In this document: one piece after another, positions 23,352-30,904 of the stretch
Layout of the letters: each line of letters begins with the position of its first letter
Position numbering within the stretch: the first letter of the stretch is position 1
Source: Desulfovibrio sp. JC010
GTDB lineage: Bacteria > Desulfobacterota > Desulfovibrionia > Desulfovibrionales > Desulfovibrionaceae
DNA: 64,000 bases
Direction: 5' to 3'
NCBI RefSeq assembly: GCF_010470675.1
Contig: NZ_VOIQ01000005.1
Span: 124,001 to 188,000, forward strand
The notes under the pieces: generated by a model
Database searches by the model: none
Seen by the model: the letters and a program-made list of their open reading frames with translations, nothing else
Told to the model about the DNA's origin: nothing
Made by a program: the position numbers and the translations under genes

Positions 23352-24503
23352 ATGGCCAGACCTAGAAAAAAGAGAAATAAAGAGATTTTCGCTCTGGGCA
23401 ATGAGGCTGTTGTTGAAGGTGCGCTTCTGGCGGGCTGTACCTTTTACGGCGGGTATCCCATCACTCCTTCATCGGAGATTATGGAGATCATGGCTCAGAG
23501 ATTGCCGCTGATTCCCAACGGTTCATTTATCCAGATGGAAGATGAAATCGCCGGGCTCGGTTCTGTTATCGGTGCATCGCTGGCAGGCAGGAAAGCGATG
23601 ACCGCCACTTCCGGTCCCGGATTTTCGCTCATGCAGGAGCATCTCGGGTACGGTTGTATTACTGAAACTCCGCTGGTTATCGTTAACGTCATGCGCGGCG
23701 GACCCAGTACCGGACTGCCCACATCCCCGGCACAGGGAGATGTTCAGCAGGCCCGCTGGGGAACCCACGGCGACCATTCAATCATAGTACTTTCCGCCTC
23801 CAATGTTCAGGAATGTCTTGATAACACTATCGAGGCTTTCAACCTTGCGGAAAAATACCGCACTCCGGTAATCCTTCTTATTGATGAGATTACCGCCCAT
23901 ACCCGTGAAAAGATCATCATCCCCAACCCGGATGAATATGAGGTCTTCAACCGCATTGTTCCGACCATGCCTCCGGAATGGTACAAACCTTATGAAGAAA
24001 CTGTGCGCGGTGTTCCGCCCATGCCGGCCATCGGTTCCGGTTACCGTTTCCATGTCACCGGGCTGACCCATGATACCAACGGTTTCCCAACCTCGCGTCC
24101 TGATGAGGTCCGGGAACTCAACGAGCGTCTTTTCCGCAAGATTGACCAGTTCCTGCACGATGTGCAGCTGGTTGATGAAGTGGATACAGAGGACGCGGAT
24201 GTTGTGGTCATCGCCTACGGCACAGTGGCCCGTTCCGCTGAACTGGCTGTGAAACAGGCCCGCGATCTCGGCGTAAAAGCCGGGCTGCTCAAGCTTTCGA
24301 CCCTGTTTCCTTATCCACGAAAGGCTACGGAGAAAATAATGTCCAAAGCCCATACTCTCGTGGTTCCGGAAATGAATATGGGCCAGATGTCAAGGGAAGT
24401 GAAAAGGGTCAATAACGGTCAGGTAAGCGTGCGGACCATCAATAAGGTGGACGGACAGATCATTACTCCGGCTGAAATCCTCAAAGTCTTAACACGGGTG
24501 TAG
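23352..24503 (+). CDS. korA: 2-oxoglutarate-type ferredoxin oxidoreductase, alpha subunit
   Basis: A 383-residue alpha subunit of a TPP-dependent 2-oxoacid:ferredoxin oxidoreductase. The N-terminal pyrimidine-binding domain has GNEAVVEGALLAGCTFYGGYPITPSSEIME, then TSGPGFSLMQEHLGY and GGPSTGLPT. The C-terminal transketolase-like domain follows (VVIAYGTVARSAELAV). These features match the KorA group best, so the probable reaction is oxidative decarboxylation of 2-oxoglutarate or reductive carboxylation of succinyl-CoA. The substrate is inference; VOR-type enzymes are similar. Confidence 0.92.
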   Translation: MARPRKKRNKEIFALGNEAVVEGALLAGCTFYGGYPITPSSEIMEIMAQRLPLIPNGSFIQMEDEIAGLGSVIGASLAGRKAMTATSGPGFSLMQEHLGYGCITETPLVIVNVMRGGPSTGLPTSPAQGDVQQARWGTHGDHSIIVLSASNVQECLDNTIEAFNLAEKYRTPVILLIDEITAHTREKIIIPNPDEYEVFNRIVPTMPPEWYKPYEETVRGVPPMPAIGSGYRFHVTGLTHDTNGFPTSRPDEVRELNERLFRKIDQFLHDVQLVDEVDTEDADVVVIAYGTVARSAELAVKQARDLGVKAGLLKLSTLFPYPRKATEKIMSKAHTLVVPEMNMGQMSREVKRVNNGQVSVRTINKVDGQIITPAEILKVLTRV

Positions 24504-24505
24504 TC

Positions 24506-25342
24506 ATGGTTGATATGAAAGGTACACAGCTCATTCATGAGTACTTAAGGCATAACAAGAAGTTTCCGCATGTTTTCTGTGCCGGTTGCGGGCACGGCAT
24601 TGTGCTCGGTTCCCTGATCCGTTCCATCCACGGTCTCGGTCTTTCCAAGGACGAGGTCTGTGTGGTGGCCGGTATCGGTTGCTCCGGCAGGCTTGCGGCA
24701 TATGTTGATTTTAACACCGTACACACCACCCATGGCCGTGCGCTGACTTTTGCCACCGGTATTAAGATGGCCAAGCCGAACATGCATGTAATCGTGGTCA
24801 TGGGTGACGGTGATTCCATGGCTATCGGCGGTAACCACCTGATCCATGCCGCGCGCAGGAATATCGGTGTTACCGCGCTGATCCTGAATAATAACATTTA
24901 CGGTATGACCGGCGGGCAATGCTCACCGACCACTCCGGCAGGCTCCTTCTCAATGACCACCCCTCTGGGGCAGATGGAGCAGAGCTTTGATTGTGTGGAA
25001 CTCTGCAGTGCGGCCAAGGCCAATTACGTGGCCCGCGGAACTGTATTTCACGTCAAAAAACTCGATAAGATGATCATGGACGGCATCAGCAACCCCGGTT
25101 TCGGCGTGGTGGAGATTCTCACTCCCTGCCATACCCAGTACGGTCGTAAGAACAAGTACAGAACCCCGGTTGATATGTACAAGATGCTCAAGAAAGATGT
25201 CATTGATATCGATCGTTACGAGAAGCTCAGCGAAGCGGATAAAGCCAAGAAGGTTCCTTCCGGCGTATTCGTGCAGAAAGATGATTCCGGCCTTGAAGAA
25301 AAATTCTATCAGATGGCCGCGAAATGTCAGGGAGGTGCGTAA
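24506..25342 (+). CDS. korB: 2-oxoglutarate-type ferredoxin oxidoreductase, beta subunit
   Basis: A 278-residue TPP-binding beta subunit. It has FCAGCGHGIVLGSLIR, then GIGCSGR, the TPP/magnesium motif GDGDSMAIGGNHLIHAARRN and NNIYGMTGGQCSPTTP. Its start is three bases after korA, and its stop overlaps the korC start by one base (TAATG), so translation is coupled. It lacks its own ferredoxin domain, consistent with the separate korD. Confidence 0.94.
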   Translation: MVDMKGTQLIHEYLRHNKKFPHVFCAGCGHGIVLGSLIRSIHGLGLSKDEVCVVAGIGCSGRLAAYVDFNTVHTTHGRALTFATGIKMAKPNMHVIVVMGDGDSMAIGGNHLIHAARRNIGVTALILNNNIYGMTGGQCSPTTPAGSFSMTTPLGQMEQSFDCVELCSAAKANYVARGTVFHVKKLDKMIMDGISNPGFGVVEILTPCHTQYGRKNKYRTPVDMYKMLKKDVIDIDRYEKLSEADKAKKVPSGVFVQKDDSGLEEKFYQMAAKCQGGA

Positions 25343-25965
25343 TGAAGAATCAACCTCTGGACAGATTTGAAATTCGTCTTTCCGGTCTCGGCGGACAGGG
25401 GATCCTTACTCTTGGTAAGGTCATGGGGTCCGGCCTTGCTCTCGGCCACGGTTACTTTGTAACCCAGACTCAGAGCTACGGCCCGGAAGCTCGCGGCGGT
25501 GCCAGCCGTTCCGATCTGGTAATCAGTTCCGAAGTGATCAGTTATCCCAAGGCTGAATCTCTCGATCTGCTCATCGCGCTCAGTCAGGAAGCATGCAACA
25601 TGTATTACCGCAACCTGAAGCCCGGCGGCCTGCTCATGATCGAAACCGATCTGGTCAAGCAGCCCCCGGTGAACCAGTTCATCGGCCTGCCTTTCACTAA
25701 GCTGGCTAAGGACAAACTGGGATTGCCTCAGGCCATGAACACCATCGTGCTTGGCGCGGCAACTTATCTGCTGCCTTTTGCGCAGCAGCGGACCATGCGT
25801 AAGAATCTTGAGGAAGTGCTCCCCGCAAAGATCAGGGATATCAACGTCAAGGCGTTCAACATGGGATTCCGTGAAGCCAAGAAGAACTTCGGTGATCCCG
25901 AAGAGCTTTGGAAAGCCAATTCAGTAATTGTCTCGGACGAAGATAGTGATTACGATTCCATTTAA
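25342..25965 (+). CDS. korC: 2-oxoglutarate-type ferredoxin oxidoreductase, gamma subunit
   Basis: A 207-residue gamma subunit (pyruvate/ketoisovalerate oxidoreductase catalytic domain). It opens FEIRLSGLGGQGILTLGKVMG and includes QSYGPEARGGASRSDLVIS, both standard for the family. GGAGG lies ahead of the ATG at the end of korB. It completes the DABC operon, and a bidirectional terminator follows. Confidence 0.93.
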   Translation: MKNQPLDRFEIRLSGLGGQGILTLGKVMGSGLALGHGYFVTQTQSYGPEARGGASRSDLVISSEVISYPKAESLDLLIALSQEACNMYYRNLKPGGLLMIETDLVKQPPVNQFIGLPFTKLAKDKLGLPQAMNTIVLGAATYLLPFAQQRTMRKNLEEVLPAKIRDINVKAFNMGFREAKKNFGDPEELWKANSVIVSDEDSDYDSI

Positions 25966-26576: not shown

Positions 26577-28157
26577 CTATTTTTTCTTTTTCGCGCCCGC
26601 GTACTTCTTGACGTCAATATTGTACTTTTTGACCTTGTAGTTGACGATACGGTAGCTGACCCGCAGATCCCTTGCCGCCTGCAGCATGTTGCCGCGAGCC
26701 TTTTTAAGGGAGTCAACCAGCAGTTCCTGCTCGAATTTAGCCACGGCTTCACCGAATGAAAGGGAAGTGTCTGTGGCGGTGGATTCGGCGGTTTGCAGGG
26801 TCGGGGGCAGGTGGTAGGTTCTGATTACCTCTTCCTCGCAGATGAGTACCGCACGTTCGATGCAGTTTTTCAGCTCACGCACGTTCCCCGGCCAGTGATA
26901 CTGGGTGAAAAGATCGATAGCCGGGCTGGAGATACGCTTGATCTCTTTGCCGTATTCCTCGGAGAACATGTCGAGGAATTTTTCGGCCAGCGGGAGGATG
27001 TCCTCGCGTCGTTCACGCAGGTGCGGAATGAAGATGGGGAAGACGTTGATGCGGTAGAAAAGGTCTTCGCGGAATTTGCCTTCCTGAAGCAGCTTTTCCA
27101 ACGGCTGGTGGGTCGCGCAGATGAGGCGGACATCAACAGCGATGGGCTGTTCGGAGCCTACGCGCTGGATTTCCTTTTCCTGAATGGCGCGCAGAACCTT
27201 GGCCTGCGCATCAAGGGAAAGTTCCCCGATTTCATCAAGGAACAGGGTTCCGTTATTGGCGATTTCAAAGAGACCGCGTTTGTTTTGGTAAGCTCCGGTG
27301 AAGGCGCCTTTCTGGTGACCGAAAAGTTCACTTTCCACCAGTTCGGCGGGCAGGGCCGCGCAGTTGAGCTTAACCAGCGGTTTTTCCCGTCTGGGACTGC
27401 AGGCGTGGATGGCTTCGGCGAGCAGTTCCTTACCGGTGCCGGATTCCCCGCGCAGCAGTGCTGTGGCGCGGCTGGGGCCGACCTGGCGGGCCTGACGCAG
27501 CACCTGTTTCATGCTCTTGGAAGTGGCTACAAAGTCCGCAGGCGGCGGTACATCAGATGCACCGGGCATCATTCCCTGCGAAAGCATCTGGGCCTGCAGG
27601 GACATTTCTTCCTGCAAACGGGAGACCTGATTGGAAATAAGGGCGGCTACAACTTCGAGGAACTGCTGGTGTTCCTGCAGGTCGTCCATGGGCAGGATGG
27701 GAGAGTCCACGCTCAGTGCGCCGATTACTTCCTGATTGCCGTCGGAATCGGTCCTGATAACAGGAACGCAGATGAAGGACAGGGTTTTCTGCTCTTCCTC
27801 TGATCTGTTGAACGCCTTGTTCAGCATCTGGCCGTCATCCGACATTCTGGGGATGATGACAGACTCGCCTGTTTCGTAAACTTTGCCCACAACACCTTTA
27901 CCCGGTGCGTAAGTGGCTGTGTAGTCCTTTGCCGGGCTATGGGTGATGGACAGTTTCAGTTTTTCAGATTCCGTGTCCATGATGGCCAGGAATGCACGCG
28001 GGAAGTGGAGGTCTTTGGACAGAACTTCAAGAATCGCATTGAGGCTGGGTTCCAAATCGTGATGGGGAGCTACAGAATCAAGAATTTCACTCAAAGTTGA
28101 AAGATAGATATTGTCCACTCGTTCCGTCAGTCCGTTTCTACTCATTTTTTTACTCAT
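26577..28157 (-). CDS. GAF-domain sigma-54-dependent transcriptional activator (NifA-like)
   Basis: 526 residues: a GAF sensor domain at about 30-180, then an AAA+ domain with Walker A GESGTGKE (237-244), the sigma-54 contact loop GAFTGA (284-289) and the arginine-finger region. A C-terminal Fis-type helix-turn-helix (ARDLRVSYRIVNYKVKKYNI) closes it. It would drive transcription from -24/-12 promoters in response to a small ligand or redox state. It lies between korDABC and iorAB and is divergent from neither, so regulation of those operons is only a guess. The only good -24/-12 site I found is at 36116. The start may instead be the ATG four codons in. Confidence 0.93.
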   Translation of the reverse strand: MSKKMSRNGLTERVDNIYLSTLSEILDSVAPHHDLEPSLNAILEVLSKDLHFPRAFLAIMDTESEKLKLSITHSPAKDYTATYAPGKGVVGKVYETGESVIIPRMSDDGQMLNKAFNRSEEEQKTLSFICVPVIRTDSDGNQEVIGALSVDSPILPMDDLQEHQQFLEVVAALISNQVSRLQEEMSLQAQMLSQGMMPGASDVPPPADFVATSKSMKQVLRQARQVGPSRATALLRGESGTGKELLAEAIHACSPRREKPLVKLNCAALPAELVESELFGHQKGAFTGAYQNKRGLFEIANNGTLFLDEIGELSLDAQAKVLRAIQEKEIQRVGSEQPIAVDVRLICATHQPLEKLLQEGKFREDLFYRINVFPIFIPHLRERREDILPLAEKFLDMFSEEYGKEIKRISSPAIDLFTQYHWPGNVRELKNCIERAVLICEEEVIRTYHLPPTLQTAESTATDTSLSFGEAVAKFEQELLVDSLKKARGNMLQAARDLRVSYRIVNYKVKKYNIDVKKYAGAKKKK

Positions 28158-28275: not shown

Positions 28276-28306
28276 CGACAGCCGCATGAAGATCATGCGG
28301 CTGTCG
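28276..28306. terminator. Strong hairpin downstream of iorB
   Basis: A 14-bp perfect stem CGACAGCCGCATGA / TCATGCGGCTGTCG with an AGA loop, 10 bases beyond the iorB stop on the minus strand. The T-run on that side is weak (ACTTTACAG), so it may act as an mRNA 3' end or a partial terminator. Confidence 0.6.
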
Positions 28307-28315
28307 TTTATTTAC

Positions 28316-28903
28316 TTATGATACTGCTTTGACTCCGAGCTCCAGAGCCTTCAGGTTGATGTCCGCTATTTTCGGTTTCATGACTGATTTTATTGTTTCA
28401 GCCAGCTGTTCCGGTTTCAGCGGGATGCATCCTGTGGCACAGAGTGCTCCGAGCAGGGCGATGTTACCGCTCTGCACGGCTCCGGCTTCGAGGCCTAAGC
28501 TCTGGCAGGGCAGGTAGTATGCTTTTCCGGCGCATCCATCAACCTTTTCCTTGATGGTTTCAAGGGGGGTGTTTTCTGCTTTTCCGGTGCATACGGAAAG
28601 GGGCGGAACATATTCAGTGCTGGAAAGCACTGTGCCGCCGGGCTTCAGGTAGGGCAGGGCGCGCAGGGTTTCCAGCGGCTCAAAGCCGAGGATAACGTCT
28701 GCTTCGCCATGTCCGATTTTAGGGGAGGCCAGCCCGATGAGCAGTGCAGACTCAACAACACCGCCGCGCTGGGCCATTCCGTGAATTTCTCCGGCAGTCA
28801 CATCGATACCGCAGTCAAGAACCGCCTGTGCAAGGAGGTTGGTGGCTGTCAGGGTTCCCTGTCCGCCGACCCCGGTCATGAATATACGCAACCTGTCACT
28901 CAT
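28316..28903 (-). CDS. iorB: Indolepyruvate:ferredoxin oxidoreductase beta subunit
   Basis: A 195-residue gamma-domain-like subunit starting MSDRLRIFMTGVGGQGTLTATNLLAQA, with GEIHGMAQRGGVVESALLIG and GEADVILGFEPLETLRALP. It partners IorA in oxidising aryl pyruvates from amino-acid breakdown to aryl-acetyl-CoA. Its ATG overlaps the iorA stop (TAATG), and the AAGGAG inside the iorA end serves as its ribosome-binding site. Confidence 0.94.
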   Translation of the reverse strand: MSDRLRIFMTGVGGQGTLTATNLLAQAVLDCGIDVTAGEIHGMAQRGGVVESALLIGLASPKIGHGEADVILGFEPLETLRALPYLKPGGTVLSSTEYVPPLSVCTGKAENTPLETIKEKVDGCAGKAYYLPCQSLGLEAGAVQSGNIALLGALCATGCIPLKPEQLAETIKSVMKPKIADINLKALELGVKAVS

Positions 28904-30747
28904 TAGCTGCTCCTTTTCCGGGCTTTAATATCTTTAGTCAGCTGCAGGCAGAGCATGCAACCGGAACAAAGGATTTCATTGATTTCAACGCCTTCCGCAG
29001 TCTTTTCAAATGCGGGACAGGCCAGTTCTTCCATCACCTTGAGCACTTCTGCGGTCTGATTCGCTACGTAAGCAGTCTGTCCGGGAGCCTTTTTAAGGGT
29101 TCTGCGGGCGAAGAGCGGGCAGGGAGCCTTGGCAATAAGGACACGCACGCCGTTCATGGCTTTCAGATCTTCGAGGTCTTTAGTGAGTGCTTTCTGGTTC
29201 AGCGGATTAACGGTACGGATCTCACTTACACCGCAACCCTTGACGATGGACTCAATGTCGACCTGCGCAGGGTTGGAACCCAGTGCGGTGGTCTCAACGC
29301 CGGGGTGAGGCTGATGCCCGGTCATGGCGGTGGTGGAGTTGTCAAGGATGACCAGCAGGATATCATGCTGGTTGAAGACAGCGTTTACCAGGCCGGTAAT
29401 ACCGGAATGGAAGAAAGTGGAGTCACCGATGAAGCCTACCACGGTCTGACCTGCGGCTTTTGCTGCTCCGGAACCTGCAGAGATGGAGGAGCCCATGCAG
29501 AGCAGGAAGTCAGCAGCATTCAGCGGAGGCAGAATACCGAGAGTGTAGCAGCCGATGTCGGAAGAACAGACTGCGTCAGGGCCGAAAACCTTTTTCACTG
29601 CGTAGTATGCGGCACGGTGGGTGCAGCCTGCGCAGAGGTTCGGCGGACGCATGGGCAGTCCTTCTTCCGCAGGACAGCTCTGGGTCTTTTCTGCTTCCAT
29701 ACCCAGAACTTCGCGGATGATGGCGGTGATGTTCAGGGTGGAGTATTCATCGTTCAGCGGCAGCAGAGCGTTGTCTTTGCCGATGATTTCCACTGTGATA
29801 GAATTTTTCTGGGCCAGAACGCGGAGCTCATTTTCAAGGAAAGGCTCAAGTTCTTCCAGAATAACGACTTTTTCCACGGAGGAGATGAAGTCGGTGAGCA
29901 TCTTGGTGGGCAGCGGGTAAGTGAAGCCCAGCTCAAGAACTTTAAATTTATCGGCAAGACCGGTGTCAGCGAGTGCGTCTGCGAGGTATGCTCTACAGAT
30001 ACCGGAGGCTACGATACCGATTTTTCCATTGCCGGAAATTTTGTTGTACTTGGAGGTCTCCGCCATTTCGCGCAGTTTTTCGAGCTTTTCAAGCAGCTCA
30101 ACGTGCATCCTGCGGGCGAAAGCCGGGATGGGTACGAACTGTGCGGGGTTCTTCTGGAATCCGGCAGCAGGAGCAAGTTTGGCCACTTCGCCGTACTCAA
30201 CAGGGCCGCGCAGATGGTTAACACGGGTGGTGGTGCGCAGGATGAACGGAGCGGACATTTCGCGGGACATGTTCAGCGCATCGCGGGTCATGTCTTTTGC
30301 TTCCTGAGCTGTGGATGGCTCAAGGCAGGGCATGCCTGCAAGGCGTGCGTAGTAGCGGTTGTCCTGTTCGTTCTGGCTGGAGTGGCATCCGGGATCGTCT
30401 GCGGAAAGCAGAACCATGCCGCCGGGGGTGCCGGTGTAGGCGAGAGTCATGAGCGGGTCGGCAGCAACGTTTACGCCGACGTGCTTCATGGTGGTCAGGG
30501 TCATTGCGCCTGCCAGAGTGGCACCGCCGCCTACTTCCAGAGCAACCTTTTCGTTGACTGAGTATTCAAAAGTGAAGTCGCCTTCAGGTGAAAGACGGAA
30601 GAAAGTGTCCGGTACTTCGGAGGAGGGGGTGCCGGGGTAACAGGTAACAACCTGAATACCGGCTTCAATCGCGCCTCGGACAATGGCTTCATTGCCGAGA
30701 AGCAGCTTTTTCATGCCCGGACTATCCTTGAGAAGTGGGTGAGCCAT
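28903..30747 (-). CDS. iorA: Indolepyruvate:ferredoxin oxidoreductase alpha subunit
   Basis: 614 residues: a pyrimidine-binding domain (LLLGNEAIVRGAIEAGIQVVTCYPGTPSSEVPD), a middle domain, a TPP-binding domain (LCAGCTHRAAYYAVKKVFG, then GDSTFFHSGITGLVNAVFN) and a short C-terminal ferredoxin-like tail. Most IorA proteins hold two [4Fe-4S] clusters there. This one keeps only four Cys: one in LACPAFEK (577) and three in CSGCMLC (594, 597, 600). By the usual cross-ligation rule these form exactly one cluster, while all four ligands of the other cluster are gone. AAGGAG lies eight bases before the ATG. Confidence 0.94.
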   Translation of the reverse strand: MAHPLLKDSPGMKKLLLGNEAIVRGAIEAGIQVVTCYPGTPSSEVPDTFFRLSPEGDFTFEYSVNEKVALEVGGGATLAGAMTLTTMKHVGVNVAADPLMTLAYTGTPGGMVLLSADDPGCHSSQNEQDNRYYARLAGMPCLEPSTAQEAKDMTRDALNMSREMSAPFILRTTTRVNHLRGPVEYGEVAKLAPAAGFQKNPAQFVPIPAFARRMHVELLEKLEKLREMAETSKYNKISGNGKIGIVASGICRAYLADALADTGLADKFKVLELGFTYPLPTKMLTDFISSVEKVVILEELEPFLENELRVLAQKNSITVEIIGKDNALLPLNDEYSTLNITAIIREVLGMEAEKTQSCPAEEGLPMRPPNLCAGCTHRAAYYAVKKVFGPDAVCSSDIGCYTLGILPPLNAADFLLCMGSSISAGSGAAKAAGQTVVGFIGDSTFFHSGITGLVNAVFNQHDILLVILDNSTTAMTGHQPHPGVETTALGSNPAQVDIESIVKGCGVSEIRTVNPLNQKALTKDLEDLKAMNGVRVLIAKAPCPLFARRTLKKAPGQTAYVANQTAEVLKVMEELACPAFEKTAEGVEINEILCSGCMLCLQLTKDIKARKRSS

Positions 30748-30793
30748 GAATATGCTCCTTAGGTCATGGGGTTAACAGAATGTTCACAAACGC

Positions 30794-30877
30794 ACGACTG
30801 TCGAGGCTCAGCGGGGATCCGGCCCCTATGGTTAATGCCGGAGCCCCGTTCTGCGTCTCATCACATCACGCAGTCGT
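30794..30877 (-). promoter_or_regulatory. Large nested stem structure in the iorA leader
   Basis: The outer arms ACGACTG (30794-30800) and CAGTCGT (30871-30877) enclose a 12-bp inner stem, 30812-30823 with 30837-30848 (one mismatch). It lies between the end of the TPR-like gene and iorA, both minus strand. No T-run follows, so it may be a structured leader, a processing site or a small RNA. I recognise no known class. Confidence 0.4.
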
Positions 30878-30904
30878 ACACTTATGATCAGCCTGTATTA
30901 AATT

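Follow-up and report, generated by a model that had tools for sequence, protein, structure and literature searches.

How does an indolepyruvate ferredoxin oxidoreductase pass on its electrons when half of the cysteines that would hold the two clusters of its ferredoxin domain are missing? The question is raised by the iorA gene of Desulfovibrio sp. JC010, located in the stretch of 64,000 nucleotides that was analysed here (the window). The gene (28903..30747, minus strand) encodes a 614-aa alpha subunit with the Pfam domains POR_N and TPP_enzyme_C, which scores 734 bits against TIGR03336, above the curated cut-off of 650.9, and is predicted to oxidize aromatic 2-oxoacids (arylpyruvate) with ferredoxin. 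The iorB partner (28316..28903, minus strand, 195 aa) was confirmed to adjoin it as an overlapping reading frame, the iorA stop and the iorB start having one base in common in a TAATG at 28903; IorB matches Pfam POR with 118 bits, over the cut-off, and its best NCBIfam model is TIGR03334 (IOR_beta), at 163.3 bits and under the cut-off of 205.8. The genome holds one IorA of this kind and two further matches, both weak, one of which (at about 23.4 kb of the window) is the KorA-like subunit of a neighbouring 2-oxoacid oxidoreductase. The KorABC-like alpha, beta and gamma genes of this 2-oxoacid:acceptor oxidoreductase occupy 23352-25965 of the plus strand and are separated from the end of iorB by 2.4 kb. 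Antisense reading frames over iorA (29305-30561 and others) were taken as shadow frames.

The gene order on the minus strand is TPR_21 protein, iorA, iorB and sigma-54 activator, and the linkage of both flanking genes, the TPR_21 gene upstream of iorA (PF09976; 30905..31588, minus strand) and the activator gene downstream of iorB (GAF, AAA and Fis-type HTH domains; 26577..28157, minus strand), is kept in the order. In a neighbour-gene comparison drawn from L004-L083 and covering the first 36 loci among the matches listed, the upstream TPR gene and the downstream regulator flank IorA in several named relatives, including L009 and L010, which have eight-cysteine tails; beside L008, also with an eight-cysteine tail, the regulator was found and the TPR gene was not. 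A regulon study puts DVU1949, the D. vulgaris activator, into one group with DVU1952, to which iorAB also belongs in four genomes (PMC4641369). Between iorB and the regulator gene lies a 14-pair hairpin followed by a T-rich stretch (28276-28306). No match to a sigma-54 consensus pattern occurs at 30748-30904 upstream of iorA; the pattern has 53 matches in the window, a number that 99 of 100 shuffles reach, and it was not used.

The C-terminal ferredoxin-fold domain comprises residues 557-614 (28906..29079, minus strand), and the span 28903-29050 that first drew attention starts at IorA residue 566 and ends with the stop codon. Within the last 65 residues, cysteines occur only at 577, 594, 597 and 600, so that four of the eight cysteines of a two-motif dicluster domain are present: C577, the fourth position (C4) and last of motif 1 (29017..29019), and C594-x2-C597-x2-C600 in motif 2 (C5, C6 and C7; 28948..28968). 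The positions of C1, C2 and C3 are taken by T565, V568 and V571 (29035..29055) and that of C8 by T604 (28936..28938), all on the minus strand, giving the pattern TVVCCCCT. In two-cluster ferredoxins, cluster I is held by the first three cysteines of motif 1 and the last of motif 2, and cluster II by the last cysteine of motif 1 and the first three of motif 2. It follows from this cross-ligation rule that the window tail keeps exactly the cluster II set, and C577, C594, C597 and C600 are thus the predicted four ligands of one [4Fe-4S] cluster; that the tail binds this cluster we infer from its sequence. Any four of eight ligands would make up the exact set of one cluster in only 2 of 70 ways. 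PMC12920312, in which C47 is stated to coordinate the second cluster, is in line with the rule. The preliminary description was right that the tail keeps only these four cysteines, that they form the ligand set of a single cluster, and that three cysteines of motif 1 and the last of motif 2 are absent. Alignment with relatives, the check it had proposed, revealed the same four-cysteine tail in other genomes. A sequence error or frameshift was ruled out, because the same tail is found in 10 of the 17 genomes of the genus, the frame runs on to the overlapping stop, and purifying selection acts on codons 576-614, with a pN/pS of 0.101 in a comparison of 15 genus members.

Structure prediction, also proposed at the outset, is consistent with a retained ferredoxin fold. 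AF2 models reach a pLDDT of 88.3 for the full-length chain and of 90.8 for the isolated tail; in the tail, strands at 557-561, 580-583, 586-589 and 607-611 and a helix at 566-575 are predicted (pLDDT about 77-95). The tail model superimposes on 1fdn over 51 residues (rmsd 1.8 A, Z 6.3) and on the POR delta chain 9bt4_G over 58 residues (2.2 A, Z 6.3), modest similarities given a Z below 8, and the Foldseek E-values of the tail are weak (best, 0.047). None of the Pfam Fer4 models reaches its cut-off on the window tail (best E, 0.38), which is in line with partial cluster loss. Fer4_13 and Fer4_15, families of single-cluster ferredoxins, have no match in this tail; they are the best-scoring models of another Desulfovibrio tail (L012), at 20.7 and 21.2 bits and below the cut-offs of 24.5 and 22.4. 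ETF-ubiquinone oxidoreductase and FixX, flavoenzymes of another pathway, have a ferredoxin-like domain whose one cluster is held by a cysteine, a spacer and CxxCxxC, a possible likeness to the ligand set of the window tail. Ferredoxins of Fer4_13 and Fer4_15 likewise carry one [4Fe-4S] cluster in a ferredoxin fold, as proposed here, but they keep an N-terminal CxxCxxC and a late cysteine (PMC6237146), whereas the window tail has an early cysteine and a C-terminal CxxCxxC.

The title of the preliminary description credited this IorA with only one iron-sulfur cluster and thereby overlooked the cluster next to TPP. When a profile of the C-terminal half of IorA was aligned with the beta subunit of a Sulfolobus OFOR (StOFOR1 beta, 5b48_B), the motif C372-x-G-C375 (29623..29634) fell on CPGC, C400 (29548..29550) on IGC and C543 (29119..29121) on PCP, all on the minus strand and all cysteine in 267 of 267 IorAs; we take the cysteines of IGC and PCP to be proximal-cluster ligands in the Sulfolobus protein. 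Its CxGC motif holds the proximal cluster, according to PMC5020499. The window IorA therefore has the CxGC motif and the two further cysteines typical of the 2-oxoacid:ferredoxin oxidoreductase superfamily, and since these four match the TPP-proximal ligands and are invariant, two clusters per IorA are expected. In overall fold (Z 32.8 over 518 residues), TPP and proximal cluster the protein resembles D. africanus PFOR (1b0p). The two PFORs of the same genome keep eight cysteines in domain V, while the window IorA carries its ferredoxin domain at the C-terminus and in halved form. It shares a shortened intramolecular wire and the proximal CxGC with the 2-oxoacid:ferredoxin oxidoreductase of Sulfolobus tokodaii (5b48, 5b46), but that enzyme is without a ferredoxin domain and the window IorA keeps one, with one cluster.

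To place this tail among its relatives, 297 IorA loci were collected and reduced to 267 distinct full-length proteins, of which 261 have a tail, leaving out 3 loci without a match (L002, L003 and L265), 17 duplicates, and 10 that were cut, fragmentary or stop-bearing (L016, L028, L031, L035, L068, L129, L130, L226, L264 and L281). In L264 (G169:C53) the IorA frame continues, in a 1105-aa open frame, into sequence that by eye resembles a GltD-like NAD(P)H oxidoreductase, a possible fusion of IOR to a reductase. The genomes were drawn from larger groups (order search, 150; phylum search, 297), one locus set being the best 80 of 578; the phylum search contributed 30 automatic loci and 39 regions chosen for family spread and to include IorAs without the domain. 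Ligands were called at fixed spacing, so that an insertion may hide a real C1 in L160, L190, L191 and L198, and only C or D was accepted at C6; the six proteins that failed were all IorAs without a ferredoxin domain.

Across the 261 tails, the two ligand sets have fared very differently. The cluster II positions C4, C5, C6 and C7 are cysteine in 261, 261, 257 and 261, the four exceptions at C6 being low-identity relatives (35-36% identity) with Asp, while the cluster I positions C1, C2, C3 and C8 are non-cysteine in 105, 185, 29 and 82. Four cluster I cysteines are left in 56 tails, three in 104, two in 20, one in 67 and none in 14, and loss of C8 is always accompanied by loss of C1 (82/82). 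All 81 tails with at most one cluster I cysteine belong to the order of the window, and the 101 with at most two all fall in families of that order; the 118 tails outside those families (35 of them without a family label) include none with two or fewer. Canonical members of TIGR03336 with a 2[4Fe-4S] tail, such as L008-L010 of Desulfonatronum and Desulfonauticus, share the family, the cassette and the proximal and cluster II ligands with the window IorA, which differs from them in lacking C1, C2, C3 and C8. One genome (G097) has two IorAs with five (L174) and eight (L221) tail cysteines, the second being 40% identical to the query, which makes them a pair for comparison within a single genome. 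In four IorA-like relatives (L223, L224, L225 and L227), motif 1 reads CxxAxxC or CxxIxxC and motif 2 reads CxxDxxC; both tail clusters are altered, possibly to [3Fe-4S].

With the tail columns left out of the tree and the root placed at the midpoint, loss-only parsimony, which takes cysteine as ancestral, required 11, 10, 11 and 11 events for C1, C2, C3 and C8 (43 in total for cluster I), against 0, 0, 1 and 0 for C4-C7 (1 in total for cluster II). Over 16 bootstrap trees, the state with at most one cluster I cysteine arose by 10-13 loss-only or 9-13 unordered changes, and the state with none by 4-7 and 4-5, respectively. The loss is therefore graded, and the preliminary description went too far in calling it clean: the order shows tails with 4, 3, 2, 1 and 0 cluster I cysteines, and within the genus 10 of 17 genomes have the strict four-cysteine tail (one as a split gene) and 7 still keep C571, so that the strict pattern marks the end of a more gradual erosion. 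Among the intermediates, C-x2-H-x2-C (pattern CHCCCCCC, 77/261) is the most frequent in the phylum sample. Single-cluster ferredoxins of the CxxHxxC type that were examined bind [3Fe-4S], according to PMC6237146, and our analysis suggests that this form may be the first step of cluster I loss. In most lineages, the second cysteine of motif 1 would have gone first (to CxxHxxC or CxxRxxC, likely with a [3Fe-4S] form), then the first of motif 1, the last of motif 2 and the remaining one of motif 1, although the exact order of steps is our reconstruction.

Our data make it probable that in the window IorA the two-cluster tail domain has been reduced to a single [4Fe-4S] cluster, which relays electrons arriving at the proximal cluster to an external ferredoxin, and as part of this best explanation the protein would be a working IorA of the Desulfovibrionales type. 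The TPP-bound hydroxyalkyl radical would give its electrons to the proximal cluster (C372, C375, C400 and C543), from where they would reach the one remaining tail cluster (C577, C594, C597 and C600) and finally an external ferredoxin, presumed to be the acceptor. It is probable that the distal, outermost cluster is the one that was lost. The kept cluster would then be the medial one, a reading that draws on the 13-residue tether linking C543 to the first strand, at 557, and on the cluster naming of DaPFOR, by which cluster II would be medial; a medial or distal assignment with cysteine numbers was not found in the openly available literature text.

Why cluster I was given up is a separate matter. 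The preliminary description argued for selection and against random decay, and half of this argument stands: because 257 of 261 tails retain one complete set and the other has disappeared again and again, the domain as a whole is not decaying at random. A positive preference for a one-cluster path is less secure, since the former ligand stretch (residues 562-571) evolves faster (pN/pS 0.326) than the kept part (0.101 for residues 576-614), which fits relaxed constraint equally. With residues 1-543 at 0.130 among the same 15 genus members, constraint is as strong on the kept half of the tail as on the catalytic body and is relaxed on the lost half. A general failing of the ferredoxin domains encoded in this genome was ruled out, as both of its own PFORs have intact eight-cysteine double motifs; the cluster loss is not common to them and is no genome-wide trend. 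Removal of the distal cluster may have been adaptive, if Desulfovibrionales gained from a shortened wire, from a different potential or from another acceptor; about 9-13 recurrences in one order and never so far in the other 118 sampled tails point this way, as does the strong conservation in the genus of the remaining ligand set and a C-terminal KARKR stretch. We nevertheless consider it unlikely, because the order of loss and the faster change at the former ligand stretch resemble relaxed constraint and because the eight-cysteine orthologs L008, L009 and L010 persist in the same iorA-iorB-regulator cassette. The loss is most simply attributed to a relaxed need for the distal cluster.

The role of the kept cluster could also be questioned. 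Sulfolobus OFORs function with the proximal cluster alone, and docking placed ferredoxin cluster I, not cluster II, 14 A from the proximal cluster (PMC5020499); if the IorA domain sat in the same way, the kept cluster would be the more distant of the two and the wire would have a gap, so that the docking speaks against its medial identity. Six IorAs from five families of the phylum (L258-L263; 6 of 267 in a chosen sample, which gives no population estimate) have no ferredoxin domain at all: they end just after the proximal PC motif, keep the four proximal cysteines and are directly followed by iorB, and no split ferredoxin gene was found in the 491-509 bases downstream, where the next frame is, by eye, IorB-like. 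These proteins are putative proximal-only IORs, and they indicate that the family can do with a shorter wire. Both the docking and the domainless relatives would suit a kept tail cluster that is structural or off the path, external ferredoxin then drawing its electrons directly from the proximal cluster in the manner of the Sulfolobus OFORs. We regard this as improbable, as a purely structural role would not readily require that the set be kept in 257 of 261 tails beside a decaying neighbour. Still harder to sustain is the notion that the four cysteines no longer bind an iron-sulfur cluster but Zn, or form disulfides, in a relic domain: the window tail does lack a significant Fer4 match, but the cysteines are exact at four places in the genus, their codons exchanging TGT and TGC synonymously, and the fold is predicted at high confidence. 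That cluster I is still bound through non-cysteine ligands or with the help of IorB, as the CxxHxxC forms elsewhere in the phylum that could hold [3Fe-4S] might suggest (77/261; PMC6237146), is hardly credible, given T, V, V and T at the four places of the window tail, the absence of a common replacement ligand in the fourteen tails with no cluster I cysteine and, by eye, of CxxCxxC in IorB.

The probable reduction to one electron-passing tail cluster is also a warning. Not all IorA tails can be annotated as 2[4Fe-4S], which would be an error for much of the family of the window, in which 66 of 93 distinct proteins have at most one cluster I cysteine. No published description of a one-cluster IorA tail was found in a search that most subscription journals lay outside, which makes this weak evidence of novelty. 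We tentatively propose, as a possibility that may well prove too broad, that the IorAs of Desulfovibrionales form a graded series, from four distal ligands to none and with no domain in some other families, in which about 10 independent losses have struck the outermost cluster and the inner tail cluster is untouchable, so that these enzymes could dispense with the distal cluster and ferredoxin would take its electrons from the medial one, the true exit. The design of such enzymes, with three clusters in a row although one suffices in some of them, poses an open question. Cassette orthologs that differ in the number of cluster I ligands offer ready material for comparing rates, potentials and the choice of partner, and a stepwise loss that always spares the same cluster is a natural test of the minimum length of an electron wire.
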